The notes beneath the pieces are model-generated. The model saw only the letters and a program-made list of their open reading frames with translations. It ran no database searches and had not been told where the DNA came from. From Actinosynnema sp. ALI-1.44 (GTDB lineage Bacteria; Actinomycetota; Actinomycetes; Mycobacteriales; Pseudonocardiaceae), in contig NZ_MTQO01000025.1 of NCBI RefSeq assembly GCF_001984155.1, positions 1-64,000 of the forward strand: a DNA stretch of 64,000 nucleotides, given 5' to 3'. The translations under genes and the position numbers were made by a program. Shown piece by piece: positions 4,115 to 24,420 of this stretch (the stretch's first letter is position 1; every line of letters starts with the position of its first letter).

Positions 4115-5914
4115 TCAGTAGGCTTCAGCGGCTGGCCTGTGGTAGCTGAAGGTGATCGAGGACGCGGTCAAAGCTGGCTTCCGCCGTCTCGTCCGCCTCG
4201 CCTGCTCGGCCTTGTTCCCTTTCAGGTTCGGACTTCTGGTAGCCAGGTACGGAATCAGCTTGCCGAGGTCATCGGCATGTGGCTTGCGCGGCTCGCGCAT
4301 GGCGATGTCGTCGGGGATCAGCAAGAGCGGGCGTCGCCTTGCAGGCGACGTGTGCGAGGCGTGGTCGGGGTGTGAGTGACTGGGCGACCGTACCCGGAGT
4401 GGTCTGTGTGCGAGCGTAGCGTCGACGTTGAGGAAGTTCTCGCTGATTGATTCGCGATCAGATAACGGGATGTTAGATAGTCCATAATAGATCATCTGTG
4501 TCGTTTCTGTTTTCGGGTGTGTCCTTTGTGGGGGTGGCCGGCGATGTGGCGAGGTGGTCGGCGTGAGGGTGGTGTGTGGCGGGGGAGTGGTTGGCGGGTA
4601 GGTGTTTGGGTGGGTGTGTGGGTTGGTGTGAGTTGGGGGATGGGTGTTGGTGGTGGTGGGTGGGTTGTTGGTGATGGTGGTGGGGTGTCCGGGTGTGGTG
4701 TGGATGAGGTTGTCGTGGGTGAGTTGGGTGATGGCGCGGTGGGCGGTGCTGGGGGCGACGTGGTAGTGGGCGGCGAGGGTGTGGAGGTTGGGTAGATGGG
4801 TTCCGGGTGGGTAGGTGCCGTTGGTGATGGCGGTGCGTAGGTCGTGGGCGATTGCCTGGTATGGGCTGGTGGGTGGGGGTGGTTGTGGCGCGACGGTGAG
4901 GCGCAGTGGCAGGCGGTTGGCGAGAAGGGCGCTGGCGCGTTGGTCGGCTTCGTTGATCCAGGCGGTGTAGGAGTTGAGGGTCATGGCGGCGTCGGAGTGG
5001 CCGAGTCGTCCGGCGACGGTGCGGAGGTTGACGCCGGCGAGGATGAGTTCGGTGGCGTTGTAGTGGCGGAGTTTGTGCAGTGTGGTGCGGATTCCCAGGC
5101 GGGTGGTGAGTCGGCGGAAGCGTTGGCTGAGAGTGTTCGGCGCGATGCAGGTTGATCCGTCAGGTGCGGAGGAGAACAGAAAAGCGTTGGGGACGAGGGT
5201 GATCCCGTGGGCTGCGGCGTGGTGACGGCGGTGGTTGAGGTAGGCCGCGATGAGGGTGGTAGTGTCGGGGTCGAGGCTGACGCGGCGGTGTTGGTGCAGC
5301 TTGGTGTCTTTTTCGATGAGGTTGGGGCCGTCGTGGGCGATGCTGGTGTGGATGTGCAGGACCTGGCGGTGGGTGTCGAAGTCGTTCTCGCGTAGGGCGG
5401 AGAGTTCGCCGCGGCGGGGGCCGGTGGTGATGGCGGTCCAGGTGAGGACGCCGAGGAGTGGGTCGGGTTCGGTCCAGAGGTGAGTGAGGATGCGGGTGAG
5501 CTCGGTGGGGCGGGGTGGTTGTGGGTGGGGGCGTGGTTTGGAGGGTGGGTTGGCCAGGGCTGTGGGGTTGGTGGTGATCCACTGCCAGCGTCGGGCGGTT
5601 CGGTAGGCGCCGCTGATGAGGTAGTGGACTTTGCGGATGCTCGCGGCGGCCAGTGGTCGGCAGGTGTGTCTTGGATCGTGAGGTTTCTGCGGGCTATGTG
5701 CTGTGGCGTGGGGTGAGTGTGGGGTGCAGTGATGGCGGCAGCGGGCGAGGGTGGCGTAGAGCGCGTCGAGTGTCTCTGGGGTGATCGCGTCGATGGTGCG
5801 GTCACCGATTAGCGGCCCGATTTGGAGTCTTGGGTATCGATCATCTGGGTGGATGGGGTTACGTTGATTGTTGTAACCCCAGACCTCGGTGCGTGATGTG
5901 CCCGCGATGATCAC
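4115..5914 (-). CDS. Tyrosine recombinase catalytic part fused to GntR-like domain, N-terminally truncated
   Basis: The phage/ICE-type integrase catalytic domain spans about residues 40-330, and the tyrosine-recombinase residues are visible: Arg168 in TGPRRGE, Lys205, His280-x-x-Arg283-His284 in HKLRH, His306 in LGHS and Tyr316 in NSYTAW. A winged-helix GntR-like domain follows (about 351-415; SPYQAIAHDLRTAITNGTYP). The tail after it is low-complexity Thr/Pro/His. The arm-binding N-terminal domain and most of the SAM-like core domain are missing: recognisable sequence begins only at about residue 30 (RLQIGPLIGDRTIDAITPET). A matching N-terminal arm lies on the same strand at 24105-24420. The GTG at 5914 is probably not a natural start, so the protein is unlikely to recombine DNA in this form. 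Confidence 0.8.
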   Translation of the reverse strand: MIIAGTSRTEVWGYNNQRNPIHPDDRYPRLQIGPLIGDRTIDAITPETLDALYATLARCRHHCTPHSPHATAHSPQKPHDPRHTCRPLAAASIRKVHYLISGAYRTARRWQWITTNPTALANPPSKPRPHPQPPRPTELTRILTHLWTEPDPLLGVLTWTAITTGPRRGELSALRENDFDTHRQVLHIHTSIAHDGPNLIEKDTKLHQHRRVSLDPDTTTLIAAYLNHRRHHAAAHGITLVPNAFLFSSAPDGSTCIAPNTLSQRFRRLTTRLGIRTTLHKLRHYNATELILAGVNLRTVAGRLGHSDAAMTLNSYTAWINEADQRASALLANRLPLRLTVAPQPPPPTSPYQAIAHDLRTAITNGTYPPGTHLPNLHTLAAHYHVAPSTAHRAITQLTHDNLIHTTPGHPTTITNNPPTTTNTHPPTHTNPHTHPNTYPPTTPPPHTTLTPTTSPHRRPPPQRTHPKTETTQMIYYGLSNIPLSDRESISENFLNVDATLAHRPLRVRSPSHSHPDHASHTSPARRRPLLLIPDDIAMREPRKPHADDLGKLIPYLATRSPNLKGNKAEQARRTRRRKPALTASSITFSYHRPAAEAY

Positions 5915-5939
5915 GGACGCGGATCATGAGCCGAGGTCT
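5855..5939. repeat. Nested inverted repeats at the left recombinase breakpoint
   Basis: GGGGTTAC at 5855-5862 is mirrored by GTAACCCC at 5873-5880 with a 10-base spacer. Right after it, AGACCTCGG at 5881-5889 is mirrored by CCGAGGTCT at 5931-5939. The GTAACC at 5873-5878 encodes Gly-Tyr in the recombinase frame. The same hexamer at 24117-24122 encodes Gly-Tyr in the N-terminal fragment. The spaced arms resemble a recombinase core site, but that reading is inference. Confidence 0.5.
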
Positions 5940-6071
5940 TTTGCGTTGATGCATCGTACGCGGCCGCCCGCGTTGATCGGTTTGGCATGCGCGGCCATCG
6001 TGTTGTCCCTTCTGTCGGGGTGCCGCGCCGAGTCGGTCCATCGCTATTGTGTTTCAGGAAATGAAGGCGTT

Positions 6072-6871
6072 ATGCGACGCATCCACGCCATTGTCCAAGG
6101 CCTGTTCGCGACCACCATCGCCGCCGGAGGGCTGATCGCTCTCGCTCCGGCGGCCCAGGCCATCACGATTCCGGTGGCGTGTGGTGAGAACGCGTTGGTC
6201 GCGGCGGTGAATCTGGCCAACTCCACTCCCATCTCCGACACCCTCGTTCTGGCCGGGGGATGTACGTACGGCATGACCACCGCTCATGGTGGCACCGCGA
6301 GCGCGTTGCAGGGATCACGACTCCGATTGAGATGATCGGCCCGGCGACCGTCGCCAATGCCTCACTGCTGGGTTTGGGACTGTTCCGGATCGCTGAGGTC
6401 AGCCCGACTGGCAACCTCACGCTCACCACCGGGGTGGCGTTCACCCGCGTCAACGTCCTCGGTCATGGCGGCGGCATCCTCAACCGCGGTGCGGTCACTC
6501 TCACCGGGAGCACCCTGACCGCGAACACCGCCTCGGGCAACGGTGGCGGTCTGGCCAATCTGGACACCCCGTCGGGCACCGCGCCCGCGGCGACGTTCAC
6601 CAACAGCCCGCTGTCGGGCAACCTCACCTTGCTCGGTGACGGTGACGCTGTCTACAACGGACTGCGCGGCACGCTCACGGTCACCGGGGTGACCGGTAGT
6701 CCGTTGTTCATCACCGGTAACAGCGCGGGCCGGGGTGGCGGGATCTCCGCGGTGAACTCCACCGCGACGACCATCACCCAGACCGTGCTCCTGCTGACCA
6801 CACCGATCCGGTGTCTGCGCTATGGAGTGGGTTGTTGCGTCGAAGATGTGACCTCGACGCAACAACCGTAA
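6072..6871 (+). pseudogene. Frameshifted secreted beta-helix repeat protein
   Basis: The gene starts with an ATG at 6072 behind GAAGG and encodes a Sec signal peptide (MRRIHAIVQGLFATTIAAGG, then LIALAPAAQA). Its first frame ends near 6320 after GGCTYGMTTAHGG. The continuation, ITTPIEMIGPATVANASLLG, is in another frame and runs to 6871. The body has GGGILNRGAVTLTGSTLTAN and GNGGGLAN repeats typical of right-handed beta-helix, polymorphic-membrane-protein-like proteins. It is a paralog of the intact gene at 7118-7879 with one frameshift and a shortened, scrambled C-terminus (LLLTTPIRCLRYG). The product was presumably an extracellular protein. Confidence 0.68.
6830..6867 (+). terminator. Perfect 14-bp hairpin after the beta-helix pseudogene
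   Basis: GGTTGTTGCGTCGA (6830-6843) is exactly complementary to TCGACGCAACAACC (6854-6867) across a 10-base loop. It overlaps the end of the broken gene. No T-run follows, as is common for actinomycete terminators. Confidence 0.6.
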
Positions 6872-7117
6872 CCGGCGGACCAGAACGACCAAGGTCAATC
6901 GGGGATCAGCCATGCTGGAAATAAACCTAAAGACGGGGTTTATATCTCACAGGCCGAGGTTCATGCGATAGTCATGGGTGAAAGGTGTTGGCCTGGCTAT
7001 TCCCAGAGCGCTGGTGTAGCGTTCTAGTTGGTTGTTCCTGACCGCCGGTGACCGCTCCTGCGGGACGTTTGAGTTTCTCTCTCAACCACCATCGGTCTTA
7101 GCTCCATGAAAGTCATC

Positions 7118-7879
7118 ATGCGACACAATCGCACCATTCTTGCCCTTACCGGGGTCGCCATTCTGACCACCGGCACGGCTCTCCTTCTCCCCACGACAGC
7201 CCACGCCCAGAACGCGTCCGTCCCGTGCGACGAGACAGCACTGGTCACCGCGGTCACCTCGGCCAACGCGGCCGGTGGCGGAACAGTGACCCTGACCCCA
7301 GGCTGCACGTACACCCTCACCGCCAGCCACGGCGACGACGGTGTCAACGGCCCCGCCGGGCTGCCGATCATCACCACCCCCATCACCCTTGAGGGCAACG
7401 CCAACACCATCGCCCGCGCCGCTACAGCGCCCGCGTTCCGCATCGTGCAAGTTGACCCCACCGGCGGAATCACCCTCAAGGCGGTCACCTTCAGCGGCGG
7501 CCAGGCCGTCACGACCGGCCACGACGACGGCGGCGGCATCCTGAACTTCGGCGCGGTCACATTGACCGGCAGTGAGCTGTCCGGCAACACTGCGGGCGGC
7601 CGCGGTGGCGCCCTCCACAGCACGGGCACCCCGGCCGCGGCGACGTTCACCAGCAGCACCGTCAAGGGCAACACCGCCAACCAAGGCGCCGGTATCGCCA
7701 GCGTCAACGGCACACTCACCCTCACCAGCAGCGTGGTCAACACCAACACCGCGACCGTGAACCCAGGTGGGATCTACTACGTGGCCGGCTCGGCATCACT
7801 CAACACCACCACGGTGACAGCGAACACGCCGACCAACTGCGTCAACAGCCCTTCCCCCATTCCGGGATGCATCGGATAA
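7118..7879 (+). CDS. Secreted right-handed beta-helix repeat protein
   Basis: The 253-residue exported protein has a signal peptide (MRHNRTILALTGVAILTTGT ending in TTAHA). A conserved N-terminal block follows (VPCDETALVTAVTSANAAGG, then TVTLTPGCTYTL), and then repeats of the type GGGILNFGAVTLTGSELSGN, GGALHSTG and GAGIASVNGTLTLTSSVVN. These repeats build right-handed beta-helices in polymorphic-membrane-protein-like and adhesin-like proteins. No catalytic residues of pectate lyases are evident, so a surface or matrix role is more likely than enzymatic activity. The ATG at 7118 is chosen over 7106 because it matches the start of the paralog at 6072 and has GAAAG upstream. A strong hairpin terminates it. 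Confidence 0.72.
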   Translation: MRHNRTILALTGVAILTTGTALLLPTTAHAQNASVPCDETALVTAVTSANAAGGGTVTLTPGCTYTLTASHGDDGVNGPAGLPIITTPITLEGNANTIARAATAPAFRIVQVDPTGGITLKAVTFSGGQAVTTGHDDGGGILNFGAVTLTGSELSGNTAGGRGGALHSTGTPAAATFTSSTVKGNTANQGAGIASVNGTLTLTSSVVNTNTATVNPGGIYYVAGSASLNTTTVTANTPTNCVNSPSPIPGCIG

Positions 7880-7905
7880 CAAAACCGCTCCACCACAACA
7901 AACAT

Positions 7906-7935
7906 GCCGGGCCACCCTGCACGAGGTGGCCCGGC
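7906..7935 (+). terminator. 11-bp hairpin terminator
   Basis: GCCGGGCCACC (7906-7916) pairs with GGTGGCCCGGC (7925-7935) around an 8-base loop, 27 bases after the stop of the beta-helix gene. Confidence 0.7.
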
Positions 7936-8323
7936 TACCGTCCTGTGCGCCTTATCCCAATCGGCGTTATCCACAGAGATGGGCTTCCGCGTCGGCAAGA
8001 GATAACTGTCGCGCAGTGAGGTTTCCCTCGATGGTGGACAGGTCGTTAAGCAGCTTTCGCGCCAGTGTGCGGAACCGGCCAGGCCGCGACCCAGTGAACG
8101 GCACGAACCACTCCAGCCCGGGACGCCGAGACCACCTGCAACCGAATATGATCAACCACACTCACCACAGCGGATCCTCGGATCATCCGCCATCCCTTTG
8201 GGGTGAACTCAGGTCGATGGCGGTATGCCGGATCGGGTCCGCGTGCGTAGGCTTTAGGTACTTTGCTGCCCCGGCCCCTGGCAGGCGTTGTGTTCGCACC
8301 ATCGGGGTGGAGGTAGAGCGACC
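7936..8323. other. Intergenic, no supported gene
   Basis: Short frames on both strands lack ribosome binding sites and known motifs. The end of the stretch carries GGAGGT, the ribosome binding site of the DUF397 gene. Confidence 0.4.
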
Positions 8324-8548
8324 ATGAGGACCTGGCATAGCGTGCTGAGTGGTTGGCGCACCAGCAGTTACAGCCATTACGAGGAGAACGCCTGCGTCGA
8401 TGTCGGCGCTGGTTACGGTCTGGTCGGTGTCCGTGACACGAAACAGACCGCGCTCGAGGTGCGCGCTCGGCCTGTGCTGGTGTTCGTCCGGCCTGCGTTC
8501 ACCGTGTTCCTCGACCGGCTCAAAGTTGGCGACACTGGTGTCCGCTGA
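8324..8548 (+). CDS. DUF397 family protein
   Basis: The 74-residue protein shows the DUF397 pattern: WRTSSYSHYEENACVDVGAG near the N-terminus, then VGVRDTK, then a C-terminal VLVFVRPAFTVFLDRLK. Members of this actinobacterial family are usually encoded next to an XRE/DUF5753 regulator and are thought to act as its small partner (the BldB/WhiJ type). No such regulator is adjacent, so this copy is an orphan. GGAGGT lies nine bases before the ATG. Confidence 0.82.
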   Translation: MRTWHSVLSGWRTSSYSHYEENACVDVGAGYGLVGVRDTKQTALEVRARPVLVFVRPAFTVFLDRLKVGDTGVR

Positions 8549-9108
8549 TCGCACGAGCGCGTGTACATGGCACTGTCGTGAACCTCATGGAGGTGGACGG
8601 TGTCGGGTCATTGTGACCGCCCGGCGTTGTGGTGCAGGAGAATTAGCGAACTTACTGATGCGGCCGCGATCTCGCCCGCATGGTTTCGGCATGATTCGTA
8701 GCCAACGGGTGCTCGGCCAGTAGACCGCGAGTTCGGTCACTCCGTGTGGTGAACGTTGGCCCAAGCGGTCCGGAGACGGGTGATGCGGCAGATCAGCTGT
8801 CAGGCGGCAGGGCCAAACCTACGCAGTCGGCCGCCCTTCCATCGGGTGCAGTGTCACAAACCTGTACTTATTGAACGCGTGGATCACCTCTCGCACTTAG
8901 CCGTCGGTGGTGGCGAACATGACCGCAGTGTCACCCGCGCTGTGGCACTGTATCGAAGCCAGCGCAGTTCAAGCGTGCTTCGTCGGTGGACCGAAAAGGT
9001 CCACAGCAGACCTGGCGTTGTGTCGGTTAGACACCTGGACCGTCAACCGCCAACGTTCATGTTGTGTCGAGATTGTGGGGACCCATGGTGCGGTGCGGGT
9101 CGGCGCTC
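8549..9108. other. Gene-free stretch of 560 bases
   Basis: Only low-quality overlapping frames are present, rich in Arg/Ser/Cys and without start signals. No repeats or RNA-like structure were noticed. Confidence 0.4.
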
Positions 9109-9312
9109 TCATCCCGCGTGCGCGGGGCCCGACGGCTTTGCCCTGTCCGTCATCCTGGTGCTCAGCGCGCGGACCCTGTCGATCAGGAGACCGGCCTCGG
9201 CCTCGGTGAACAGGCCCTGCTCGGCGGCGCGCGTGATAGTCGCGACGCAGCTCTGGTGGGCTTCGGCGATATCCTCGAACGGCCCTGACGAGGTCAACTT
9301 GAGGTGTGCCAC
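9109..9312 (-). CDS. Small hypothetical protein
   Basis: A 67-residue helical protein starts at a GTG at 9312, preceded by AAGGGA. It reads VAHLKLTSSGPFEDIAEAHQ, then CVATITRAAEQGLFTEAEAG, then LLIDRVRALSTRMTD. Composition and codon use fit a real cytoplasmic protein, but no family is recognised. It is transcribed away from the TPR gene. Confidence 0.5.
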   Translation of the reverse strand: MAHLKLTSSGPFEDIAEAHQSCVATITRAAEQGLFTEAEAGLLIDRVRALSTRMTDRAKPSGPAHAG

Positions 9313-9552
9313 GGGAATCCCTTGATCGGCTGAGGATGATCCCGCCAGGGTCCGGGGCAGTGGCGTTGACACTACGCCATCACGACGGGGCTGAGCAGCG
9401 GTACCGTATCGGTCCGGTCGGCGGTACCGTCGCGTATACGTTCTCGTTCGCGCCCGGTCCTCGCGCGGTCACAACGCGGATCCCCTGCGGTCGTTCTGGT
9501 GCATCAAGGTGAACCTGACGGCGTCCGGTCGTCGGCTCGGCACGGAAGGAAC

Positions 9553-9609
9553 ATGAGCATGGTCCAGAACCTGCGGGTCGTCCGGCTCGTGACCCTCGAC
9601 GCGGCCTGA
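9553..9609 (+). CDS. 18-residue peptide ORF with strong ribosome binding site
   Basis: GGAAGGAAC lies directly before an ATG that opens an 18-codon frame, MSMVQNLRVVRLVTLDAA, ending in TGA at 9607. It precedes the TPR gene by 111 bases. It could be a translated leader, a small peptide or a decayed gene start. Nothing else about it is known. Confidence 0.35.
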   Translation: MSMVQNLRVVRLVTLDAA

Positions 9610-9720
9610 AAGCTCTTGTTGGCCGGCGACACCGAGAAGCCGAGTTCGGACAACGATGCCCCATCCCGCTCCGGTCCCTGGCGGGCCCCTCCATCTTTAT
9701 TGTTGCCAAGGAGGTCGGCC

Positions 9721-10743
9721 ATGGCCCTACGCCACCATGATGACGATCCAGCGCCATCGGTGCCCGAGGTCCCGATGTCAGTTCCCGAGCGTGTCGGGGC
9801 ATCAGATGTGGCACGGATCGAGGCAGCGACGCGGGTCTTGCGGGCCTGGGACTACCAGTGCGGCGGAGGTGCGTGCTACGACGCCGTTGTCACCTACGTG
9901 ACCTGGGCACAGCGCCTGCTCGGCGCCGCCACAACAGAGCCGGTCGGCGACCGGCTTCGCACCAGTGTGGCGGATCTGCACTGTCTGGCCGGATGGACCG
10001 CCTTCGACATCGACCGGGTCGACCAGGCTCGTCGCCACTTCGACGACGCCGCCAGGCTGGCCCAGTTCGCTCGCAACGACGCACTGGTGGCCGGTATCAG
10101 GTATCGCAGAGGCCGGGTCCATCTGCACCACAACGCGTTGGACGCGGCGCGGGTGGATTTCCAACTCGGTCAGCACGCGGCTCAAGCCTGCGCGTCAGCA
10201 CTGCCTGCCGCGATTCTGCACGCGAACCAAGCTTGGGTGGCCGCGAAGATGGGCCTCGCCGACGACGCACTCGCGTCGCTGGGCAAGGGCCTGGACGACT
10301 TCACTCGATCAGATCCGGCCGACGCGCCGGGGTGGGCGGCTTTCTTCGACATCAACGATTTGCTGGCCATGTCTGGTGTCATCTACGCGGATCTCGCGCG
10401 GTCCGTGGATCCGTTCTACGCACGTGCGGCGATACCCGCCCTGACCAACGCGGCAGACGGGTACAGCCAGATGGCCCGTAGCAGGTCGTTCAGCCTGGTC
10501 GCGCTGGCGGCGAGTCATCTCATCGAACACGACGCGGACCGCGCGGCCGCGGTGGGTGCCGAGGCCATCGCCGTAGCTTTGACGGTGAGGTCGTCGCGGG
10601 TCCGGGATCGGCTGCTGTCTCTGAAGAACATGGCGGATCAGCACCGTGACAACGCCGATGCCCGCGAATTGTCCGAACGGATCGCCGTGTTCGCCGCAGT
10701 GTCACCAGCCCACAGCCGGGTCGCCAGCCAACGAAGTCGCTGA
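9721..10743 (+). CDS. TPR-repeat protein (sensor half of an XRE-type regulator, without HTH)
   Basis: The 340-residue cytoplasmic protein starts at an ATG behind a near-perfect AAGGAGG. After a short acidic lead it has the segment VGASDVARIEAATRVLRAWD, then YQCGGGACYDAVVTYVTW, which is found after the helix-turn-helix in actinobacterial XRE regulators. Helical TPR-like repeats follow (DRVDQARRHFDDAARLAQFA, ALDAARVDFQLGQHAAQACA, MGLADDALASLGKGLDDF). No DNA-binding domain is visible, so it may bind a partner regulator or peptide. The 18-residue ORF just upstream could be related. Confidence 0.68.
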   Translation: MALRHHDDDPAPSVPEVPMSVPERVGASDVARIEAATRVLRAWDYQCGGGACYDAVVTYVTWAQRLLGAATTEPVGDRLRTSVADLHCLAGWTAFDIDRVDQARRHFDDAARLAQFARNDALVAGIRYRRGRVHLHHNALDAARVDFQLGQHAAQACASALPAAILHANQAWVAAKMGLADDALASLGKGLDDFTRSDPADAPGWAAFFDINDLLAMSGVIYADLARSVDPFYARAAIPALTNAADGYSQMARSRSFSLVALAASHLIEHDADRAAAVGAEAIAVALTVRSSRVRDRLLSLKNMADQHRDNADARELSERIAVFAAVSPAHSRVASQRSR

Positions 10744-10830
10744 AGACCCGCACACTGAGTTCGGGCAGTGCCCGGGGGTGCCAAGGGCGAGGTTTGTTGC
10801 GGGGTCTCAGCGTAGCCCTCAGCGGGCAGC

Positions 10831-11418
10831 ATGTCTCACCCAGACAGTTCATTCCCCTGCCGCAGGCACGGGCAGTCACTCCGGTTGCGCCTCAAGCCCA
10901 GCGAATCGACCGTCGGGTACGTCGACGGCGCCTGGTGGCCACGGTCACGGGATCTGGCAGCGGAATTACCAGCGCTGGTCAAGGTGCTCGCCGTCCGGCT
11001 CGGCCCGGTGTGGCGAGTAGTGTTCGCCTACACCTCGTGGGGCGACGCGCCGCGCAGGATCCAACTCGACGGTCACTCCGTCCGGCTGGATGGATTCCGG
11101 TCGCAGGACGAGAACGTCATCAGCGTCGTCTCGATGGACCGCCAACGCATCCACCTGCTTGTCATCCCACCGGATGCCGACAAAGCAGCCAGCCACGAGG
11201 CGATGATGACGGCCGCTGGACGCGCCCAACAACTGCTGAGAACCACTCGTCCAGCTTCCGAACCAAAGCCGGACGCCGACGAACAGAGCGCCGCGACCTG
11301 CGCGTCATGCCCGCACCCTTGGGACAGCCACGATCAGATCGCGGTCCGCTACTGCACCGCGAAAGCCGTCGGCGGGAACAGCCCGGGTTGCGTCTGCACA
11401 AACAAGAAGACTTCATGA
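10831..11418 (+). CDS. DUF5994 protein with C-terminal RGCVC-like Cys tail
   Basis: The 195-residue protein carries the DUF5994 signature RLRLKPSESTVGYVDGAWWP then RSRDLAAELPALVKVLA near the N-terminus. The C-terminal 40 residues are CASCPHPWDSHDQIAVRYCT...GCVCTNKK, the spacing of Cys and His seen in small actinobacterial RGCVC proteins and probably a metal-binding knuckle. The two parts are joined in one frame without a visible frameshift. Function is unknown; DUF5994 genes commonly lie near GAF/ANTAR or stress genes, as here. Confidence 0.72.
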   Translation: MSHPDSSFPCRRHGQSLRLRLKPSESTVGYVDGAWWPRSRDLAAELPALVKVLAVRLGPVWRVVFAYTSWGDAPRRIQLDGHSVRLDGFRSQDENVISVVSMDRQRIHLLVIPPDADKAASHEAMMTAAGRAQQLLRTTRPASEPKPDADEQSAATCASCPHPWDSHDQIAVRYCTAKAVGGNSPGCVCTNKKTS

Positions 11419-11701
11419 CCACCACCGGCCAACACACATGACCGCCTGCGGCCCCATGGGCCGAGCTCGTCAAGGAGACCCGGGAAGTGCGCTGATCGAT
11501 TTCCGAAGGTGCTGTCAGCGGGCGACATGCCCCCGGCAAGTACGGGGGGTTGTGCCTGGTCACTGTTCGATTGGAATCGGTGTGCGAACGGCTACAATTG
11601 AAAGAGCGCGTGACCGATGACGTGGACAGCGCGCTGATCGTGTTGATCGCCCCAGACTCCGGCGGTTGAGTTCCCTTGCCGACGCCTGGAGGCGATTTCC
11701 T

Positions 11702-12786: not shown

Positions 12787-12790
12787 TGCT

Positions 12791-14669: not shown

Positions 14670-14680
14670 CGGTATCAACC

Positions 14681-15880: not shown

Positions 15881-16318
15881 CTAGGCCTGTCGGCGGGTGA
15901 CAGCCGCGTAGTGCGCGACAGCGACCGCTCCGCCGATGGCCAGGCAGGACCAGATCCCATGCCGAGCGTGGAGCATCCAGTGTGCGCGCCGCGATGCCGA
16001 CGACGCTGAGGCTCAGGCCGGCGCTGAATGCCAGCACCGGTGCGGCCCAGACGCGATCGTGGCTGTGACCCCGATACTGAACGCGAGTAGCGACTGGACC
16101 AGGAACAACGGCAGACGCCGCAGGGCCGCGGCAGCGAAGAGAAACCTTACCAAGTCCGTGCCCAGACCGAGGAAGTAGATCGGCTGACGCCGAAGCGCGA
16201 CCAGACCAAGGGACGTACCGCCGTACAGTCCGGCGCGGCGGACACCGAGGGATTGCAGGATCGAGCCGCTGCCTGACGCCAGCGCCGCGAGCACAGCGAA
16301 GACGTATCCGAGAGCCAT
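15881..16318 (-). pseudogene. Multi-frameshifted membrane protein
   Basis: Three consecutive minus-strand frames together read as one membrane protein. The first (16318 to about 16050) is MALGYVFAVLAALASGSGSI with QPIYFLGLGTDLVRFLFAAA; the second is APVLAFSAGLSLSVVGIAAR; the third is LAIGGAVAVAHYAAVTRRQA ending at a TAG at 15881. This pattern (GSGSILQSLGVRRAGLYGG) resembles an actinobacterial transporter-like membrane protein of DMT type. At least two frameshifts disrupt it, so it is not functional. Confidence 0.6.
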
Positions 16319-16910
16319 CCGTCAAGTGTGGCAGCCAGGCGCCCCACACTGGGTCGTTGGTTCTCGGTTCGGCCACCGCCGTGCGCGGTGGGGGCGTCGG
16401 TGCGGATTTCGGTGCGGTCGTGGGCGGGCACGGCGCGGCGGATCAAGTCGGGTAGTTCGTGTTCGTGGGATTCGCCAGCGTGGAGGGTGGTGGCTATCAC
16501 GGCGCGAATCGCGTCGACTTCGCTGTGAATCTCCTTGCGCAACGCGAGGCATCGATGATGTGCGCGGCCTGAGGCCAGTCGGTCGCAGCGCCTGGCGCTT
16601 GGTCTCGATCGGACGTTTGCCGTCTCGACACTCTCCTTGCTGCGCAAGGAAATGGCGTCACTGAATCGATTATCCAAACAGGCACTTACTCGGTTTGCGG
16701 CGTCACGTCATTCGTCGAGGGCGTGGCCATCCACCGTCACCTGGCGGCCCCCGACGCTTCGTTCGCCGCCTGTTTTGGCGTCCACGAACAGTGAACCCAT
16801 GTGGATGGCCCGGTCGAACGTCGCCTTCGGCAGCCCCGTCAGCGCACGGCCGGGTTCGGTGTGCCGGGCGGTCGCTGTCTGTAGCGCGGCGTTCCTGCGG
16901 CTCGACAGGG
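16319..16910. other. Gene-poor stretch with one doubtful frame
   Basis: A minus-strand frame (16677-16319) contains a helical run, RKEIHSEVDAIRAVIATTLH, but has no ribosome binding site and runs without a stop into the membrane pseudogene. It may be another decayed gene. Nothing else is supported here. Confidence 0.35.
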
Positions 16911-17261
16911 TCACAGGTTGTGTGCGATGGGGTGCAGTGGTTGGTACAGGGGCAGTTCGGACCCGCTTGGCATCCGTACCGCGGTGAGTCGACCCCATCG
17001 TGCCTCGGTTACCGGTCGGCTGGTTTCGACGCCGGCTGTGGCCAGGGTGGTCAGGACCGTGTCCAGGTCGTCGCACATCAGGTAGAACTCGTGCTGTGGT
17101 GCGTCGTCGGTCGGGTGAATGGCGACCTCGGCCGGGGGCAGTTTGAAGATCAGCCACCCGTGTCCGGCATCCACGTGAGGGAACCCGAGGACGTCGGCGA
17201 CGAAGGCGCGGTCCGCCTCGGCGTTCTGGCTGTAGAGGATCACGTGCGCGCCGCTGAACAT
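16911..17261 (-). CDS. VOC/glyoxalase superfamily protein
   Basis: The 116-residue single-module VOC protein reads MFSGAHVILYSQNAEADRAF, VADVLGFPHVDAGHGWLIFK, HEFYLMCDDLDTVLTTLATA, then RLTAVRMPSGSELPLYQP. The fold binds a metal or small hydrophobic ligand between paired beta-alpha-beta modules. Members include glyoxalases, dioxygenases and resistance proteins. ATG 17261 is favoured over a GTG five codons upstream because it aligns with typical VOC N-termini. It lies downstream of the AraC regulator on the same strand and may be its target. Confidence 0.8.
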   Translation of the reverse strand: MFSGAHVILYSQNAEADRAFVADVLGFPHVDAGHGWLIFKLPPAEVAIHPTDDAPQHEFYLMCDDLDTVLTTLATAGVETSRPVTEARWGRLTAVRMPSGSELPLYQPLHPIAHNL

Positions 17262-17397
17262 GGCCAACAGTGCCACGCGAAGACGTTGCCACGCAAGCCG
17301 GAGCCCTCCGACGGCCGACTATCAGTTCGGAGCCGACACGCAGAACGTCTTCTATGCCGAGATGCGGACATCGGGTAGCGGACAGCTGGTGGGCGTG

Positions 17398-18183
17398 TTA
17401 TTGGCCGTGGTGGGCTGCGTCGTGCTCGTGAAGCAGGAGTTGGGGACTGAGGGCGGCCAGGGCTGTGGGGGTGAGTCCGAACATACCGCGGAAGGTGCCG
17501 GTGAGATGCGATGGCGAGGCGAATCCCGCGTCGGCGGCGGCACGGGTGAAGTCGTGGCCGTGTGCGAAGGCCGCGGCCACGCGCAGTATCCGTGCCCACT
17601 GCACATAGCGACGGAAACTGGTGCCCGTCTGGTCGGAGAACTTCCGCAGGAAGTGTGACCTGGACAGGCCCGCCTCGCGTGCAGCGGTCTCGGCGCGCTG
17701 CGGGCACGCCGGGTCGGCCCGGATTCGGGCCGCCGCGTCGGCGATCCGCGCATCGCCGGGTCCCAGCACGGGGATGCTGGCTGCTGCCAGCAATTGCTCG
17801 AAGTCCACCTCGTCCCGGGTGGCCAGGTCGATCAGGTCCGCCTCGTGGCGGTGGCCGGTGCGAAACGCGCCGGTGACACGCCGCATACCGCCCAGGCATC
17901 GGGACATCCGCGCCGAGGTCGGGTCGAAGTAGCAGAACAGCATCCGGCCTGCCCCATCGCGGATCTCATGCCGGACCCTGGCGCGGAACAGGAAGCTGCG
18001 GACGGTTAGGTCCGGCACCCCGTCGGCCCGGACGGTGAAGGGCGCGTCGAGGCCGACGCCCAGACAGGCAATCGCCGAGGAGTGAGGGCCAAGGCGCAGC
18101 AGAGGGCCAAGGTAGACGGCGTGCCCGAGCCGAAGCCACAACCGTACGGGGGCGCACGTTTGTGGAAGTGCCGGAGCGGTCAT
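17398..18183 (-). CDS. AraC family transcriptional regulator
   Basis: The 261-residue regulator has a C-terminal double helix-turn-helix DNA-binding domain (AAREAGLSRSHFLRKFSDQT, GTSFRRYVQWARILRVAAAF, then AAADAGFASPSHLTGTFRGM, FGLTPTALAALSP). The N-terminal part has a beta-rich sensor-like region (FLFRARVRHEIRDGAGRMLF). The ATG at 18183 gives a normal length. It is followed on the same strand by the VOC gene after about 130 bases, a common regulator-target layout. Confidence 0.88.
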   Translation of the reverse strand: MTAPALPQTCAPVRLWLRLGHAVYLGPLLRLGPHSSAIACLGVGLDAPFTVRADGVPDLTVRSFLFRARVRHEIRDGAGRMLFCYFDPTSARMSRCLGGMRRVTGAFRTGHRHEADLIDLATRDEVDFEQLLAAASIPVLGPGDARIADAAARIRADPACPQRAETAAREAGLSRSHFLRKFSDQTGTSFRRYVQWARILRVAAAFAHGHDFTRAAADAGFASPSHLTGTFRGMFGLTPTALAALSPQLLLHEHDAAHHGQ

Positions 18184-18502
18184 GCGATCAAGAATACGTG
18201 CCGCGCGACGGGGCACCGCCCCTTGTGGAGGAGGACAGCATGGCTGACGACCGATCCCCGCATCGACGAGATCCGCCCGGCGGCGACCATGATGGCCGAC
18301 CCCGGGCCATGCTGAGCACGCTATGGCGCGAGCGCACGCCCCGGCAAGGCGGGCAATGACCTTCCCCTGGCAGATGAGGCGGTCGCCGACGCGACATGGC
18401 TCCCGCGCACCGCATCTCTCTGGTCACGTCGCAACAGTTCTTGCCACCTCTCGCGCATCAAGCCTGACAACCAGGACCAGGCCGCACGGAAGAGACATCC
18501 AC

Positions 18503-18991
18503 ATGCAAGAGTCCGAGCAGTTCGTCGCGAAGTTCATCGACTTCTGGAACGACCCGTCTCCCCAGCGGATGCCAGAGATCTTGCATCCGGACATCGTGTT
18601 GACCCAGCCATTGGCCGCGCCGATGCGGGGGATAGCGGCCGCACAGGAGGAGTTCCGGCGGATCTGGCGCTTTTTGCCCGACCTGCGCGCACAGGTGGAC
18701 CGGTGGCGTGGTGACCCGGATCTGCTGTTCATCGAAGTCCGGCTGCACGTTCACGTCAGGGGTGACCTGATCGAATGGCCGAACATCGACCGGTTCGTAC
18801 TGCGCGACGGCAAAGCGATCGAGCGCATGAACTACTTCGATCCTCTGCCGCTGCTGTCGGCGATACTCAAACGTCCCTCGCTATGGCGACGCTGGTGGAC
18901 GTCGGGAGCGGCGCGGCCATGGCGCACCGGGCATCGAATAGCCGACTACGGCGGTCGGGCCAACACGACCCGTACCACCAGTCCTAAGTAA
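18503..18991 (+). CDS. SnoaL-like/NTF2 superfamily protein
   Basis: The 162-residue cone-fold protein begins MQESEQFVAKFIDFWNDPSP, then EILHPDIVLTQPLAAPMRGI, then FLPDLRAQVDRWRGDPDLLF, WPNIDRFVLRDGKAIERMNY. This is the SnoaL-like layout used by cyclases, isomerases and ligand-binding proteins. GGAAGAG precedes the ATG. It is divergent from the AraC gene and could be under its control. The substrate cannot be told from sequence. Confidence 0.78.
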   Translation: MQESEQFVAKFIDFWNDPSPQRMPEILHPDIVLTQPLAAPMRGIAAAQEEFRRIWRFLPDLRAQVDRWRGDPDLLFIEVRLHVHVRGDLIEWPNIDRFVLRDGKAIERMNYFDPLPLLSAILKRPSLWRRWWTSGAARPWRTGHRIADYGGRANTTRTTSPK

Positions 18992-19519
18992 CCGATGAGC
19001 GGAGGTCAGGTGAAGCGAGGTCGTGTTCGGGTTTCAGATCCGTGGTGCCTTGTCGGTGCTGTCGGTGGCCGGTGGATACCAGCCGGGGGTGGTATTTCAT
19101 CCGATTGGTGGTAGCGATGGCCAGCTGAGAAAACCCGCCAGACTCCACCCAGATCGGGCTGCCGCTGGAGCGACTCGTCGGCAACTCCTGAGTGTTGTAG
19201 GCGTGCAGAACGGCCGCGATCGGCCGCGTCGTCGAGGCTCCGGCACCCATCCCGCCCGGGAGGGCGTCGTGATGAACACGACGCGGGCCACGTGGTGTCC
19301 CGGTCGCTGACTCGCACCTCGTCGCCGGTGTTGTTCTCGATGGGTGCTCGCTCGGGAATCTCGTACTCGGCCGTGGCCACAATGGACTTGAACAACAACG
19401 TTCTCTGACATCCGTCGGCGGTCGGCCATGCCCTCGTATGGCCGACCGCCGTCCTCGCGCCGGTCACGTCACGTCCTGTGTGGCCGGAGAGTCAGGTCTC
19501 GCAGCCCCGTCGTGGATTG
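18992..19519. other. Degenerate stretch with coding-like pieces in different frames
   Basis: Minus-strand pieces read as protein but shift frame: VATAEYEIPERAPIENNTGD, then VVFITTPSRAG, then ASTTRPIAAVLHAYNTQELP and PIWVESGGFSQLAIATTNRM. This suggests one gene with several frameshifts, starting near 19430. No family is recognised. Confidence 0.35.
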
Positions 19520-20734
19520 TCAGGTCCAGTCGTATTCGGCCAGTGCTTCATGGATCTGCCGCTGGTTGGTGAACCGGCCGCCGAAGCGGTCTGGACGCCA
19601 GGCATCCACCTGTGCTGACTCGCTGGGCCCGCCGGTGATCCGCTTCGTCAGCGCACGGGCATAGCCGGGACCGTAGGTGATGCCCGCTTCGTTGTCTCCG
19701 GACAGCACATAGGCTCCCGCGACGCCGGGTACCTCGCCGACCACGGCCCGCATGTCCGGGGTGTAGCAGGGAGCACCGTGTTTCACGTGCAGTCGGGTGC
19801 GTGCCGCCAGCGCCGGGCTAACCGCCGCGCCACGCTCGGCGATCCGCAGAATCTCCAGGACGCCGTCGATCGGCAGGTCGTCCAGCCGGTCCGGCACGGG
19901 TGCATCGACGAGGACGTTCCGTGGGAAGACGTCATAGGTGCCACCCCACAGCAGACCGTCGTCGTGCCCGCGGACCCACAGCATCGTGCCTCCGCCCGGT
20001 TCGTCGGGAGCGAGACCGCTCAGGAACAGGGTGGGCAGAGTGTCCGGCACGCCACGGGAGCCGGTGATGATCCGCGAAGTCACCTGGGCCACAACAGGCA
20101 GGAAGAACCCGAGCGAGGCCACCAGTTCGCTGTTCCACGCACCCGCGGCGAGCACGACCGCCTCGCAATCCACCCGGCCACGCGCCGTCTCCACGGCCCG
20201 TACACGTCCACTCCGGACAGTGAGCCCGGTGACCGGCCGTCGGGTGTCGATCACACCGCCGGCGGCGCGGACCCGCTCGGCGAGCACGGCCACCACCTTC
20301 GGTGCGTGGACCTGCGCGCCGCTCTCGTCCAGCAACCCACCGAACACGCGTTCGGCGCGCACGACCCCCGCAGTCCGCGCCTCCACCTCAGCCGGACCCA
20401 CGATTGTTGCCGCTCCCTGCTCGTCCGCGTTCAGGGTCTCCCACGCGGCCGCGCTCGCCGCGACATACAGCATCGCGTTCGCCTTGAAGTCGATATCGTG
20501 CCCGTCCCGGTGCAGACCCGCGTAGAAATCGCGGCCATATCGAGACGCCTCGAGCTCGTTCTCATAGGGCGCCCAGTGCCCGAGGAAACCTCCACCAGCC
20601 GCCGTGGTCCCCTGCCCGACATCGTCCCGCTCCACCACCCGGACGTCACGCACTCCCGCTTGCAGCAGGTGCAGCGCCACCGCGCAGCCCAACACCCCAG
20701 CACCGATCACGACGACCTCGGCACGGTCGACCAT
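19520..20734 (-). CDS. FAD-dependent oxidoreductase (DAO/glycine oxidase-like)
   Basis: The 404-residue flavoenzyme has an N-terminal Rossmann FAD-binding motif, VVVIGAGVLGCAVALHLLQA, and a second dinucleotide-contact segment, VLAAGAWNSELV. Near the C-terminus is YTPDMRAVVGEVPGVAGAYV, then LSGDNEAGITYGPGYARAL. This is the D-amino-acid oxidase (DAO) superfamily, whose members oxidise amines such as D-amino acids, sarcosine or glycine with release of H2O2. The substrate is not predictable. ATG 20734 has GGGAG upstream. It is monocistronic, with nothing recognisable on either side. Confidence 0.85.
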   Translation of the reverse strand: MVDRAEVVVIGAGVLGCAVALHLLQAGVRDVRVVERDDVGQGTTAAGGGFLGHWAPYENELEASRYGRDFYAGLHRDGHDIDFKANAMLYVAASAAAWETLNADEQGAATIVGPAEVEARTAGVVRAERVFGGLLDESGAQVHAPKVVAVLAERVRAAGGVIDTRRPVTGLTVRSGRVRAVETARGRVDCEAVVLAAGAWNSELVASLGFFLPVVAQVTSRIITGSRGVPDTLPTLFLSGLAPDEPGGGTMLWVRGHDDGLLWGGTYDVFPRNVLVDAPVPDRLDDLPIDGVLEILRIAERGAAVSPALAARTRLHVKHGAPCYTPDMRAVVGEVPGVAGAYVLSGDNEAGITYGPGYARALTKRITGGPSESAQVDAWRPDRFGGRFTNQRQIHEALAEYDWT

Positions 20735-21163
20735 ATTCCACTCCCTTCGAAAATGGGCAGCGAGTACCGCCACACGAACTATTCCCCTCGTGTGCGAGAT
20801 CTCCGCTTTTCCCTGCGCCCTCGGCCGAGGCTAGCCGAAGCGATCGCCTATTCGCATATAGAAATTTTCAGCGCGAGGCCGGAGGGGCAATACCTGCTGA
20901 CGGATGAGTGCTGGACAGCGAGTGAACTCGTCCTGGCGGACAGGTGTGGTGAACGGACAAAATTGGTGTGGGCTGGGCTGGGTGACGCCGAGGGTCCGTG
21001 GTGCCGAACGAGCCCGATTGACAGCCTGGCGCGGGATCGTGGGGGTGTGGGCCCATGAATTGTTGCCAGTGAGCACGCGGTTTCGTCGAGGTGCGTGATC
21101 GCAAGGAGATTGCGCGGCTCGCCCACAGTGTTGTCATGACCGTTGCCGGGGGCGACTGCGTCA
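20735..21163. other. Gene-free stretch upstream of the oxidoreductase
   Basis: This stretch contains the promoter region of the oxidoreductase and no supported frame. Part is relatively AT-rich (20840-20870). Confidence 0.4.
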
Positions 21164-21300
21164 TCAGTCCAACCGGTCCGCCGGACCACGCCCCCGGCCT
21201 GGATCCACGAACGCCAGATCAGCAGGCCTCAGCGTGAAGAACCGGAACAACTCGTCCCGGCCGATGTCCGGCAAGCCTGCAGACGCTCTACCAGCGATAC
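21164..21300 (-). mobile_element. Tn3-family transposase N-terminal fragment (DUF4158)
   Basis: About 40 codons read SAGLPDIGRDELFRFFTLRP, then ADLAFVDPGRGRGPADRLD. This matches the N-terminal DUF4158 segment of actinobacterial Tn3 transposases (DELxRxFTLxxADxAFVDPGRGRGPADRLG). The frame stops at 21164, so the remaining 900 or more residues are gone. No terminal inverted repeats were noticed. Confidence 0.6.
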
Positions 21301-21540
21301 GGGCAAATCGCCCATCAGATCGAGTGGGGACGCGCGCGAGGCGGGTGCATCGACCACACGCCGAGATAGCGGAAGCGTTGATCGCGTGCGTGCGCAGCTG
21401 TGGAAAGACGCGCGGCCGCCCTCGAGGTTGCTGAGAAGTTCCCTTATTTTTCCCTGTCAACCGGGAGCAAATGGCCGGTGCCCGGCGCGTCTTCAGTGCG
21501 AACAGCGAACAGGCAGAAGAGCTGCAGGGGGATATTTCAG

Positions 21541-22121
21541 ATGCTGAGGCCCGTTCTTTTCGGTGCGATCAGCGTCGGTGTTGTCGGTCTTTTCATGGCG
21601 GGACCCGTGGCGCATGCCGACAGTGGCGACGCGAAGCTCTACTTCAGCAAGCACGCGGTACCCGGTGGAGCGGTCGAGCTGAGCGGTATCTGTCATGCGG
21701 ACAAGGCGATGGCCTATTCCAACGAGCTTGAGCCGCACGCCATCACTCTTGTCCGCAGGAACAACATGGGCGACATCAGTGCCAATGCCAAGGTCGGGAA
21801 GAATGTCAAGCCGGGCATTTACCAGGTTAGGTTCGATTGCGGCGACACCAAGCAGCACGTTCAGATCGAGATCGAGCCCGTTCAGCAGCAGCCGTCGAAG
21901 CCGACAACCGGCAAGCCCGCTCCGGCCAAGCCGGAGGCCGGTCAGGTGGCGGTGAAGCCGAAGGGTGCGGCGAACACAGGTGAGGTGACGTGGACACCGC
22001 TGCTCCGGTGCGGGAGCAGGGTCCGAACACGGGGTTGTTCGTACTGGGTGGAGCCGGTGTGCTGGCCGCTGGTGGGGCGGGTGCGTTCATGCTTCGCCGT
22101 CGTTCACGCACGCAGGGCTGA
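21541..22121 (+). pseudogene. Secreted protein with C-terminal anchor, frameshifted
   Basis: The protein has a Sec signal peptide (MLRPVLFGAISVGVVGLFMA ending in VAHA) and a beta-rich domain (GAVELSGICHADKAMAYSNE, GIYQVRFDCGDTKQHVQIEI), followed by a Lys/Pro-rich stalk. The first frame then runs into an Arg/Cys-rich tail. One base out of phase lies a classic anchor: GPNTGLFVLGGAGVLAAGGA, GAFMLRRRSRTQG, stop at 22121. A one-base deletion near 21985 explains both. The intact ancestor would be a surface protein held by an LPxTG-like/hydrophobic anchor. A strong terminator follows directly, so the locus is otherwise intact; a sequencing error cannot be excluded. Confidence 0.68.
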
Positions 22122-22139
22122 CGATCGATCGCACTGAAG

Positions 22140-22175
22140 GGGTGGCTTGCCTCGGGGGAAGGCAAGCCACCCTTT
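22140..22175 (+). terminator. 12-bp hairpin with short T-run
   Basis: GGGTGGCTTGCC (22140-22151) pairs with GGCAAGCCACCC (22161-22172) and TTT follows. It lies 18 bases after the anchor-frame stop of the secreted protein, which supports that frame as the true end. Confidence 0.75.
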
Positions 22176-22458
22176 CGCTGTGTACAACGGTTTGTGGACC
22201 CGTAAGCGGGTCAGGTGGTGCCGCAGTCGGTGCGCGCCGGGCGCGGGCGGCCGCCGGTCTCGTTCTGGTAGGGCTACAGCTGACATATTTGTCAGCCTAT
22301 GGCTGACATCTGAGCGGCGTAGTCCGCGAACCCGGCTGGGCGGGTTGCGGGATAACGTCGACCTACGCTGGCCGGTGCGGCGGCGTCGGGGTGCTCGTGC
22401 TGCTGGTGCTCGCGTTGTGCACGGCGTGGGGCCAGGCCGCGATACCGCGCAGCCAGGC

Positions 22459-23166
22459 CTACGAGACGTTCGCCGGGGGCAGGGCGGGCTGCGGCTGAGA
22501 CGCCTCAGCGAGGCGACGAAGGATCGAGGCTGGCTGCTCCAGCAGTCGTGGATTGCGTTCGAGGTAACGCAGTTCCTCCTGGGTGAGGTTCCGGACCACC
22601 GGGACGCCGTCGGCTTTGATCAGCAGCAATGAGCCGATCTGGATCAGCGCGGTCGGCTCGTCCTTCAGTGCGGTCAGCAGCTTCGCGACGGCATCGCCTT
22701 GCAGAGCGTCGACATCGGCCTGCGCCTTGCCCACCAGTTGAAGTTCGATGCCACGCTCGATCTTCAGCAGCCGTTCGGTGATCTGGTCGGAGGTCAGGGC
22801 CTTGCGCAGACGGAACTGCGTCTTCTGGAAAACCGATCCGAGGACGTGCGGTCCGCGGGAGTTGACGTCGAAGCCGAAGGCGTCCAGCAATTTCTCCAGC
22901 GCGGCCTGGACTTCCTTGTGATGGCTGCCGTCGGCCAGGTAGGTCACCGTGGGCACTGGGGGTATCGGCTGGTGGCGTTGGGTTCGGCGACTGTCCGGTA
23001 TCTCGTCGAACGGATCCTTCGACGGTCGCGGAGGCTCGTAATCCGGGTCCGACGTTGAGTCCACCGCTGCCTCGGGTGAAGCGTCCTGGGGGAATGGCTT
23101 CACCATGGGTGGCAGGTCGTTGCGATCGCCGCTGCCGACTGGGCCTTCCCAGTTTGCAGTCGTCAT
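22459..23166 (-). CDS. Uncharacterised actinobacterial protein (235 aa)
   Basis: The first 80 residues are Pro/Asp-rich and probably disordered (PPRPSKDPFDEIPDSR). The rest is helical: EVQAALEKLLDAFGFDVNSR, GPHVLGSVFQKTQFRLRKAL, LQGDAVAKLLTALKDEPTAL, IQIGSLLLIKADGVPVVRNL, TQEELRYLERNPRLLEQPAS. The pattern of a small alpha/beta domain plus a C-terminal helical tail ending in an 'ERNP.LL..P..IL' run recurs in uncharacterised actinomycete proteins, but I cannot name the family. The ATG at 23166 is the first plausible start, though a weak ribosome binding site leaves it uncertain. Its 5' end overlaps an antisense integrase remnant. Confidence 0.6.
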   Translation of the reverse strand: MTTANWEGPVGSGDRNDLPPMVKPFPQDASPEAAVDSTSDPDYEPPRPSKDPFDEIPDSRRTQRHQPIPPVPTVTYLADGSHHKEVQAALEKLLDAFGFDVNSRGPHVLGSVFQKTQFRLRKALTSDQITERLLKIERGIELQLVGKAQADVDALQGDAVAKLLTALKDEPTALIQIGSLLLIKADGVPVVRNLTQEELRYLERNPRLLEQPASILRRLAEASQPQPALPPANVS

Positions 23167-23292
23167 GCCGCTCCCCCACGGTTCCCGTGCCAGTGAGGTG
23201 TGCGGGATGTACATCGAGGACCTCGACCTGCGCCTGGACGAGGAACACGCCCGCGTGCGGCAAAGGCGGCTCGGTGCGCACCGTGCTGTGGT
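23165..23292 (+). mobile_element. Plus-strand XerC/integrase fragment, frameshifted
   Basis: A short plus-strand stretch encodes the tyrosine-recombinase Arg-I region: PLPHGSRASEVCGMYIEDLD, LRLDEEHARV. The conserved GKGGSVRTVLW follows in another frame. This matches the canonical '(R)xSEVCGLxVEDLDLxxxxxRVxGKGGxxRTVL' of XerC-like recombinases. Only about 42 codons remain, and a frameshift lies near 23264. The fragment is distinct from the minus-strand recombinase pieces, so a second integrase once sat here. Confidence 0.6.
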
Positions 23293-23399
23293 CGGCCACT
23301 CCAGCAGCGTCTGCAACTGGCGCAAGGCCTCGGTGGCCTTGGGATAGCCGGGGACGTCAGGTGGGGCGAAAGTGTGAGGAATCCGCGCTGACACCGGCC

Positions 23400-23936
23400 A
23401 GCCATCGCTTGAGTGCGGATGTCGACACTGGACATCCGTCCGGCCCGGCCAAAGGCCAGCGCAGGCTCGAGATGGTGGAAGAACACCCAGCAGGTGTCGA
23501 TGCTGCCGGAGAGCCGGACGGCGAAGCCGTGAACGACGATGTGGTGGTCAGTGCGCCGTTCGCGCGGAAGCTCCTCGACATCATGGACGTGGTGGTAGTT
23601 CGGCAGCTCGTAGTCGTCGCAGTCGCACTCCGCGCGCCCGCCGCGCGCAGGTCGTTGCAGGATCTGCTGCGAGGTCGAAATGGAAGGCGCGGCTGTGTCG
23701 CGGGAGTTCGCACCGTCGAAGCGGTCGAGCGCGTCCTGGATGTTGCGCACGAGGTCCGGATCGCTGCCGCGGCGGCCCACAACGTGCCGCAGGTACACCT
23801 CAGCGCCCTGCCGGAGGCCAGCGTCGGGAAAACTGCACACCATCGCGACCTGCGTGCCGAAGCTTTCCACGTGATCCCAGGAGTCGTAGCACTTGTTGCC
23901 GGTCGTACATCGGGTGCAGGCGAGCGTTCCGACCAT
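23400..23936 (-). CDS. Uncharacterised protein, 3' end probably lost
   Basis: From an ATG at 23936 about 178 codons have strongly GC-biased third positions and protein-like sequence: SWDHVESFGTQVAMVCSFPD, AGLRQGAEVYLRHVVGRRGS, CDCDDYELPNYHHVHDVEEL, SIDTCWVFFHHLEPALAFGR. The N-terminus (VGTLACTRCTTGNKCYDSW) has four Cys and could bind metal. Near 23400 the frame enters the region of the antisense integrase fragment and becomes Arg/Pro-rich without a natural stop until 23163, so the C-terminus appears replaced. No family is recognised. Confidence 0.4.
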
Positions 23937-24104
23937 TGTCGGGCGACGGCGTACCCATTCCGCGTCTTTGGGGACAGTCGAATCCGGGAACGTACCGGTA
24001 CGGTTTCGTTCTCACGAAACGTGTGGGGTGTGCCGGGTACTGACGGGACAGGCTCGACCCCGTCCAGGACGAGACGTCATCCCACCACCTGGGGGCGCGT
24101 GTGG

Positions 24105-24420
24105 TTACCGTCCGCAGTAACCGGCTGTGGTGGTGACGCTGGCGTGCAGGCTGGCGATGTGTTGGTTGATTAGCTGGTTGAGGGTGATGTTGGGCTGGGG
24201 GCGCCGTTGTTGATCGATGTGGTCGATTAGTCGCTGCAACCCGCTGTGCTTCGCGCTCGGCGGAGGGGCCTGCTGGGATGGTTTCTGATAGGTAGTGGGG
24301 ACGGTGGGTGATCGGGTCGGTACCGGCTTGGACTCGTACTCGGAGGGATCCGCTGGGCAACATGCCGATGTGGCCGCGACGACGCGACTTGCTGGTACGC
24401 GGCCGAGTAGTTGCTTTCAC
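24105..24420 (-). pseudogene. N-terminal arm domain of a tyrosine recombinase (split gene)
   Basis: A GTG at 24420 preceded by GAGAGGAAT opens VKATTRPRTSKSRRRGHIGM, LPSGSLRVRVQAGTDPITHR, PHYLSETIPAGPSAEREAQR. This is the AP2-like arm-binding N-terminus of actinobacterial integrases. After a one-base deletion near 24245 it continues in the next frame as LQRLIDHIDQQRRPQPNITL, NQLINQHIASLHASVTTTAG, YCGR, stop at 24105. The core-binding domain is broken off right after Ala-Gly-Tyr. The matching C-terminal part lies on the same strand at 4115-5914, and both share GGT TAC (Gly-Tyr) at the break. The tRNA-Arg gene, a typical integration target, is 560 bp away. Confidence 0.72.

Follow-up and report, generated by a model that had tools for sequence, protein, structure and literature searches.

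The 64-kb window analysed here forms the beginning of an 85-kb contig of Actinosynnema sp. ALI-1.44 (NZ_MTQO01000025.1; source genome G000, 11.7 Mb in 54 contigs) and contains two minus-strand pieces of tyrosine recombinase (integrase) genes on either side of an 18.3-kb interval, the right-hand piece lying beside an intact tRNA-Arg(CCT) gene (Table 1). The original prediction, made from the sequence alone, read the two as one integrase gene split by about 18 kb. The order and strand of the pieces, their common subfamily and the complementarity of the halves stand; what does not stand is a shared history, as the halves belong to different lineages of the same subfamily.

Regarding the left piece, the open frame that holds it encodes, as predicted, a PF00589 catalytic domain (residues 157-318, E 4.3e-17, 62.9 bits against a curated cut-off of 27.1) and a GntR domain (PF00392, residues 351-414, E 1.7e-11). 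In protein P0001 the residues R, HxxR, H and Y, which we take to be the tyrosine-recombinase motif, were spotted by eye. The frame of the C-terminal piece is open across ~440 codons, and the residues encoded by 5914-5822 are absent from the protein of the intact homolog, as is the stretch past ~4490 (by offset to locus L067). The closest relatives are intact integrases of genome G002 (L067, 3539-5209, 557 aa, together with a second copy at L069) and of Actinocrispum wychmicini (G005; L068, 3083-4957, 625 aa), the latter adjoining the same tRNA gene and the former its 46-bp 3' fragment. By blastn the C-terminal piece is 88.8% identical to L067 (4281-5825), 91.4% to L069 (4424-5825) and 86.8% to L068 (over 4511-5825), homology to all three stopping at 5825.

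The intact N-terminal domains are missing from this gene and are present only as the right-hand stub. An N-terminal piece predicted at 24105-24420 does exist, at approximately 24101-24420, ending at about residue 112 in the numbering of the L067 copy (L067a). It is not one open frame, since it spans two, the start frame (VKATTRPR...) differing from the frame that ends in ...VTTTAGY, with the frameshift near 24240 corresponding to a 2-bp gap relative to intact relatives. Both pieces are members of a single subfamily of GntR-fused tyrosine recombinases found at tRNA-Arg(CCT), and thus do not fall into different subfamilies, but trees and identities place them in different lineages. The best N-half matches among 390 family genomes are those same G002 and G005 relatives at only 67-75% identity.

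A single gene that was cut should have halves equally akin to the intact copies, and the observed kinship is unequal. At the DNA level the C-terminal piece is 92.4, 93.5 and 87.9% identical to L067a, L069a and L068, respectively (L067a and L069a being 94.1% identical to each other), whereas the N-terminal piece is 71.9, 73.1 and 75.6% identical to the same copies, which here share 91.7% (L067a and L069a) and 84.3% (L067a and L068). The flank between stub and tRNA gene tracks the N-terminal piece, the window being 60-64% identical to its relatives against 77-82.5% among the relatives (a block that includes the tRNA gene), with the two G002 copies 82.5% identical mutually. The identity step is abrupt and located at the break: against L069a, the last full 75-column bin of the C-terminal piece has 71/75 identical columns, the next 13 columns 10/13 and the first N-terminal bin 52/68, the corresponding bins between L067a and L069a being 69/75, 10/13 and 67/73. 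Changes unique to the window occupy 44 of 245 sites in the N-terminal piece and 33 of 1135 in the C-terminal piece (counted over 4401-5821, which includes a little 3' flank), a six-fold gap (Fisher p ~1e-15).

Phylogenetic analysis agrees with these identities. In the trees of the C-terminal part the window groups with the G002 copies (DNA 100/99; protein 98/95, with G005 outside), while in those of the N-terminal part it falls outside G002 and G005 together (protein 99/96; DNA 99/99). Approximately unbiased (AU) tests on DNA, with groups defined once the identities and protein trees were known, rejected trees in which the N-terminal piece was held with the G002 copies (p 0.005) and trees in which the three relatives were held together without the C-terminal piece (p 0.0006). 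The trees drew on 34 integrase frames, with six dropped (the window's own, one partial frame of the source genome, and second, cut or broken copies of included loci), the N-terminal protein tree additionally leaving out L007, L050 and L029, whose N-terminal part is too short or garbled; the DNA trees used chosen rows (n=10 for the N-terminal and n=8 for the C-terminal part). The intact L067a and L068 show no conflict between the two trees. Changes in the N-terminal piece favour third codon positions (19/69 vs 25/176, Fisher p 0.025), and part of its divergence therefore probably predates the split and arose in a coding gene. In the N-terminal protein tree the end branch of the window (0.12) lies between those of the relatives (0.07 and 0.19). 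Fast neutral decay of the N-terminal piece alone is disfavoured by this codon bias and the moderate protein end branch, though it may have contributed.

The break itself was located by a join scan in which both flanks were scored against intact relatives with the outer ends fixed. The best-scoring join for L067 and L069 is 5820/5821 with 24100/24101, and for L068 it is 5825 with 24099; the join restores an intact GATGTGG, with ~5 bp missing nearby, slightly inside the N-terminal piece, and by BLAST alone the N-terminal homology ends at 24111 or 24117, a position 10-16 bp later. The breaks had been placed instead at a pair of GTAACC hexamers, with about ten extra residues remaining at the join. 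These residues are an artefact of the wrong join, none being needed because the two pieces complement each other nearly base for base. The hexamer at 24117 sits within integrase-homologous DNA, 16 bp from the break, and that at 5873 sits ~50 bp into non-integrase DNA and is present in the second copy of that DNA on contig C11. When pairs of random 60-bp window stretches were drawn 2000 times, 1329 pairs shared a same-strand 6-mer (pairs less than 500 bp apart being skipped and scored as misses), so that the shared GTAACC is chance; join position, C11 copy and 6-mer frequency together rule it out as a junction or recombination core. A target-site duplication was likewise rejected: the ATTTGG at the left break resembles the GATGTGG of the integrase, yet ATTTGG is also present in the copies of the interval on C11 and in G002, and it is for this reason better read as a short shared sequence.

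The tRNA-Arg(CCT) gene is a hotspot for mobile-DNA integration. Relatives carry displaced copies of the 46-bp 3' part of the gene (24980-25025), which is also found, whole or in part, on contigs C45 and C28 of the source genome. In G002, displaced 3' fragments at 842, 864 and 931 kb, flanked by integrases or integrase remains, precede the intact tRNA gene at 1.1917 Mb, and in G005 a 49-kb stretch between a tRNA fragment and the tRNA gene has a GntR-fused integrase near each end. Stretches between copies or fragments of this tRNA gene were also seen to carry a GntR-fused integrase of one subfamily near one end and another subfamily at the other (L067, L115, L068), and measure 49 kb in G005 (contig C5) and 67 and 261 kb in G002 (L067 being G002:C1:925000-934500). 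In the window, the integrase adjoining the intact tRNA gene is a stub only, 560 bp away, and apart from the tRNA gene itself no displaced tRNA fragment was found in the 64 kb. An inverted repeat at 24921-24960, just beyond the tRNA 3' end, is terminator-like.

Four other N-terminal-only stubs, defined by having no catalytic-domain match within the examined locus, were found in the genus, on contig C45 of the source genome, in Kibdelosporangium philippinense (G007), at 842 kb in G002 and on contig C7 of G004; they end at residues 161, 148, 123 and 184, respectively (L067a numbering). A stub near a contig end in G003 (L111) was left out of this count. In the C45 and G007 stubs the N end adjoins a tRNA fragment or tRNA gene, as in the window. 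The C45 stub (G000:C45:5596-6241, L072) is of a different subfamily and lies beside a tRNA-Arg fragment. The G002 stub lies ~370 bp from a tRNA fragment with its broken end facing it, and the G004 stub has no tRNA fragment in the examined locus. Not every tRNA-adjacent integrase is broken; in G001, G002 and G005 long integrases adjoin the intact tRNA gene. In a hand count across 60 family genomes, the 80 N-domain matches included 29 in frames <300 aa, of which at least four are at contig ends and a few are two pieces of one gene; frames of this length were taken as broken, frameshifted genes included, and the window's own 329-aa chance frame was counted as unbroken. An isolated 352-bp catalytic-domain fragment of the same subfamily, 91% identical to window 4922-5273, was noted in G002 (L092, G002:C1:9004000-9012000, 3469-3819; ~9.0075 Mb), ~12 kb from a copy of a different piece of the 18-kb interval.

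Regarding the interval, Pfam searches of its open reading frames (ORFs) and of all six frames of 5830-24114, with X at stops, matched DUF397, DUF5994, a fatty-acid desaturase, two ANTAR regulators and an AI-2E transporter, and further a weak glyoxalase, an AraC regulator, SnoaL and a FAD oxidoreductase. These searches found no transposase, recombinase or transfer genes, and neither the Pfam matches of the interval nor those of five ORFs in 265-3989 included rep, tra or xis, the contig end cutting the DNA further left. The left 8.4 kb of the interval are collinear, with gaps, with contig C11 of the source genome from 20004 down to 12785 at 83-93% identity, and parts of them recur at other places in relatives. 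The interval is a mosaic with no recognisable mobile element. Its left limit at ~5833 is common to the window, C11 and G002; as the end of a mobile unit it is at most a candidate, the other end in the window being the truncation of the adjoining gene, with no transposase found and terminal repeats sought by eye only. That gene has a secreted-protein-like start, judged by eye from the translation. Upstream of it, at 5858-5950, lie two hairpin-like inverted repeats, GGGGTTAC/GTAACCCC and AGACCTCGG/CCGAGGTCT. The arms of the first had been taken for a feature of the left junction; they are instead part of the region that precedes the adjoining gene, and its C11 and G002 copies contain them in altered form. 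By eye, the G002 copy keeps the pairing despite changes on both arms, and the C11 copy is changed on one arm alone.

Table 1. Features of the window discussed in the text.
Feature	Position	Strand	Remarks
Open frame holding the C-terminal integrase piece	4115-5914	-	PF00589 and GntR
C-terminal integrase piece with 3' flank, L067a/L069a lineage	4281-5821	-	blastn, C-terminal trees
Interval between the pieces	5822-24100		Mosaic of genes of chromosomal type, some of them truncated
5' part of a gene and upstream region	5833-6785	+	Start 6072; truncated at 6785 relative to C11 and G002 copies
NsdA-family regulator	9616-10743		NCBIfam
N-terminal integrase stub, frameshifted, lineage outside L067a/L068/L069a	24101-24420	-	
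Stub-tRNA flank	24421-24979		Homologous to the matching interval in G005 and G002, equally divergent (60-64%)
tRNA-Arg(CCT)	24980-25053	-	Intact; integration target

The explanation that we favour, with confidence and doubt in equal measure, is an eroded tandem-integration hotspot at tRNA-Arg(CCT) that holds the remnants of two related integrases, since the disagreement between the family trees of the pieces makes leftovers of two elements more likely than one cut gene. The integrase of the tRNA-proximal element would have lost its catalytic part, leaving the N-terminal stub beside the tRNA gene, and a second, closely related integrase of another lineage would have lost its N-terminal part, leaving its catalytic half as the left piece. 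The 18 kb between them would be a mosaic of captured or remaining cargo rather than a single mobile insertion. Truncation or rearrangement within an unstable tandem array may have produced both remnants, and the close match of the breakpoints would be chance. The contrast between a frameshifted N-terminal piece and a C-terminal piece whose frame is open supports this explanation. So do the identity step, the conflict between the trees, the four further stubs, the tandem arrays at this tRNA gene in G002 and G005 and the isolated catalytic-domain fragment in G002.

Several observations weigh against two remnants. The pieces are complementary within 0-17 bp of a ~1650-bp intact gene, an agreement that has roughly a 0.5-2% chance if the breaks were independent. 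The integrase homology of 24101-24116 is distinct for two of the relatives, its score against L069 and L067 being matched by just 5 and 18 of the interval's 18259 16-mers (less clearly so for L068, 520/18259). No tRNA fragment marks an element border between the pieces, where only chance-level matches of 11-17 bp were found. In the N-terminal DNA tree the end branch of the window is 0.12 against 0.042-0.061 in the relatives, about two-fold or more, and part of the N-terminal divergence may consequently reflect faster change in the window. The cost of the coincidence is softened because the pair was reported for looking complementary. The two-remnant explanation thus covers the stubs, the ordinary gene content of the interval and the histories of the pieces, but has to accept a coincidence of about 0.5-2%.

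The strongest competitor, which we consider rather unlikely, is a single split gene, the two halves of which differ in history: a tandem array may have given rise to a recombinant integrase, with its N half from one lineage and its C half from another, that was interrupted at the crossover, or exchange with an L067-like copy may later have replaced the left half as far as the insertion edge. It would explain directly why the breakpoints are complementary to 0-17 bp, and tandem arrays do recombine according to a published account (PMC3218068). It requires one additional event, however, and the point at which crossover or replacement stopped would have to lie no more than ~15-20 bp from the insertion, given that the C-terminal piece is 81/88 identical to L069a over its final 88 columns; moreover, the intact L067a and L068 lack any such conflict between their halves. 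Less probable still is one ordinary integrase gene with a single 18.3-kb interruption, its halves ageing together since. Complementarity, order, strand and common subfamily all fit, but the six-fold gap in window-unique changes, the rejected tree placements, the third-codon-position bias of the N-terminal changes (p 0.025) and the failure to find mobile functions in the interval speak against it, and of the three gene-history readings it is the least able to account for the trees. An empty site of this exact gene was not found in the collections searched, which hold one genome per species. An assembly misjoin at either junction is very improbable: the genome is in 54 contigs and window 1-99 is identical to an internal stretch of contig C35, but only ~6 bp are common to the integrase and the nearest interval copies at the left junction, and those copies are, at 87-93% identity, too different for assembly merging, while for the right junction no interval copy was found for comparison. 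The identical stretch in C35 (~172911-173009) indicates that the contig ends in a repeat.

The locus documents a Pseudonocardiaceae hotspot at tRNA-Arg(CCT) with GntR-fused integrases, long tandem arrays and repeated integrase stubs. Complementary fragments in such a repeat-rich hotspot can mimic a single interrupted gene, and only testing the histories of the halves exposes the problem. A highly speculative extension, to which we give little credence, is that integrases at this hotspot repeatedly and non-randomly lose their catalytic part and keep an N-terminal stub. The five stubs end at about residues 112-184 (int1 numbering); the core-binding domain may contain a preferred break region, or the stub may be retained as a decoy or regulator binding the attachment (att) site. 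If a preferred break region existed, the window pair would be a stub and a catalytic half meeting at that same region.

The closest known systems include tyrosine-integrase islands in tRNA genes. No split integrase of this genus appears among the literature matches listed. In the Islander account (PMC4383910), islands at tRNA genes bear displaced tRNA fragments as markers and are recognised by an integrase together with both att sites. The tRNA-Arg(CCT) loci resemble Islander islands in having an integrase by the intact tRNA gene, displaced 3' fragments and tandem arrays at one tRNA gene, and the window differs from them in that its tRNA-adjacent integrase is a stub and that no displaced tRNA fragment was found in it. 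PMC3218068 describes tandem elements at tRNA-Arg in actinobacteria, e.g., the actinomycete integrative and conjugative elements (AICEs) Sav3708/Sav3728, notes that such arrays are unstable and reports one element with a truncated int. As with the AICEs described there, tyrosine integrases of differing subfamilies share one tRNA-Arg gene in tandem; in contrast to them, no rep, tra or xis was found in the interval of the window. The intact integrases of G002 (L067) and G005 (L068) are of the same subfamily and hold the same place by tRNA-Arg(CCT) or its fragment, and, unlike the pieces in the window, they are uninterrupted and their N- and C-terminal halves agree on tree position.

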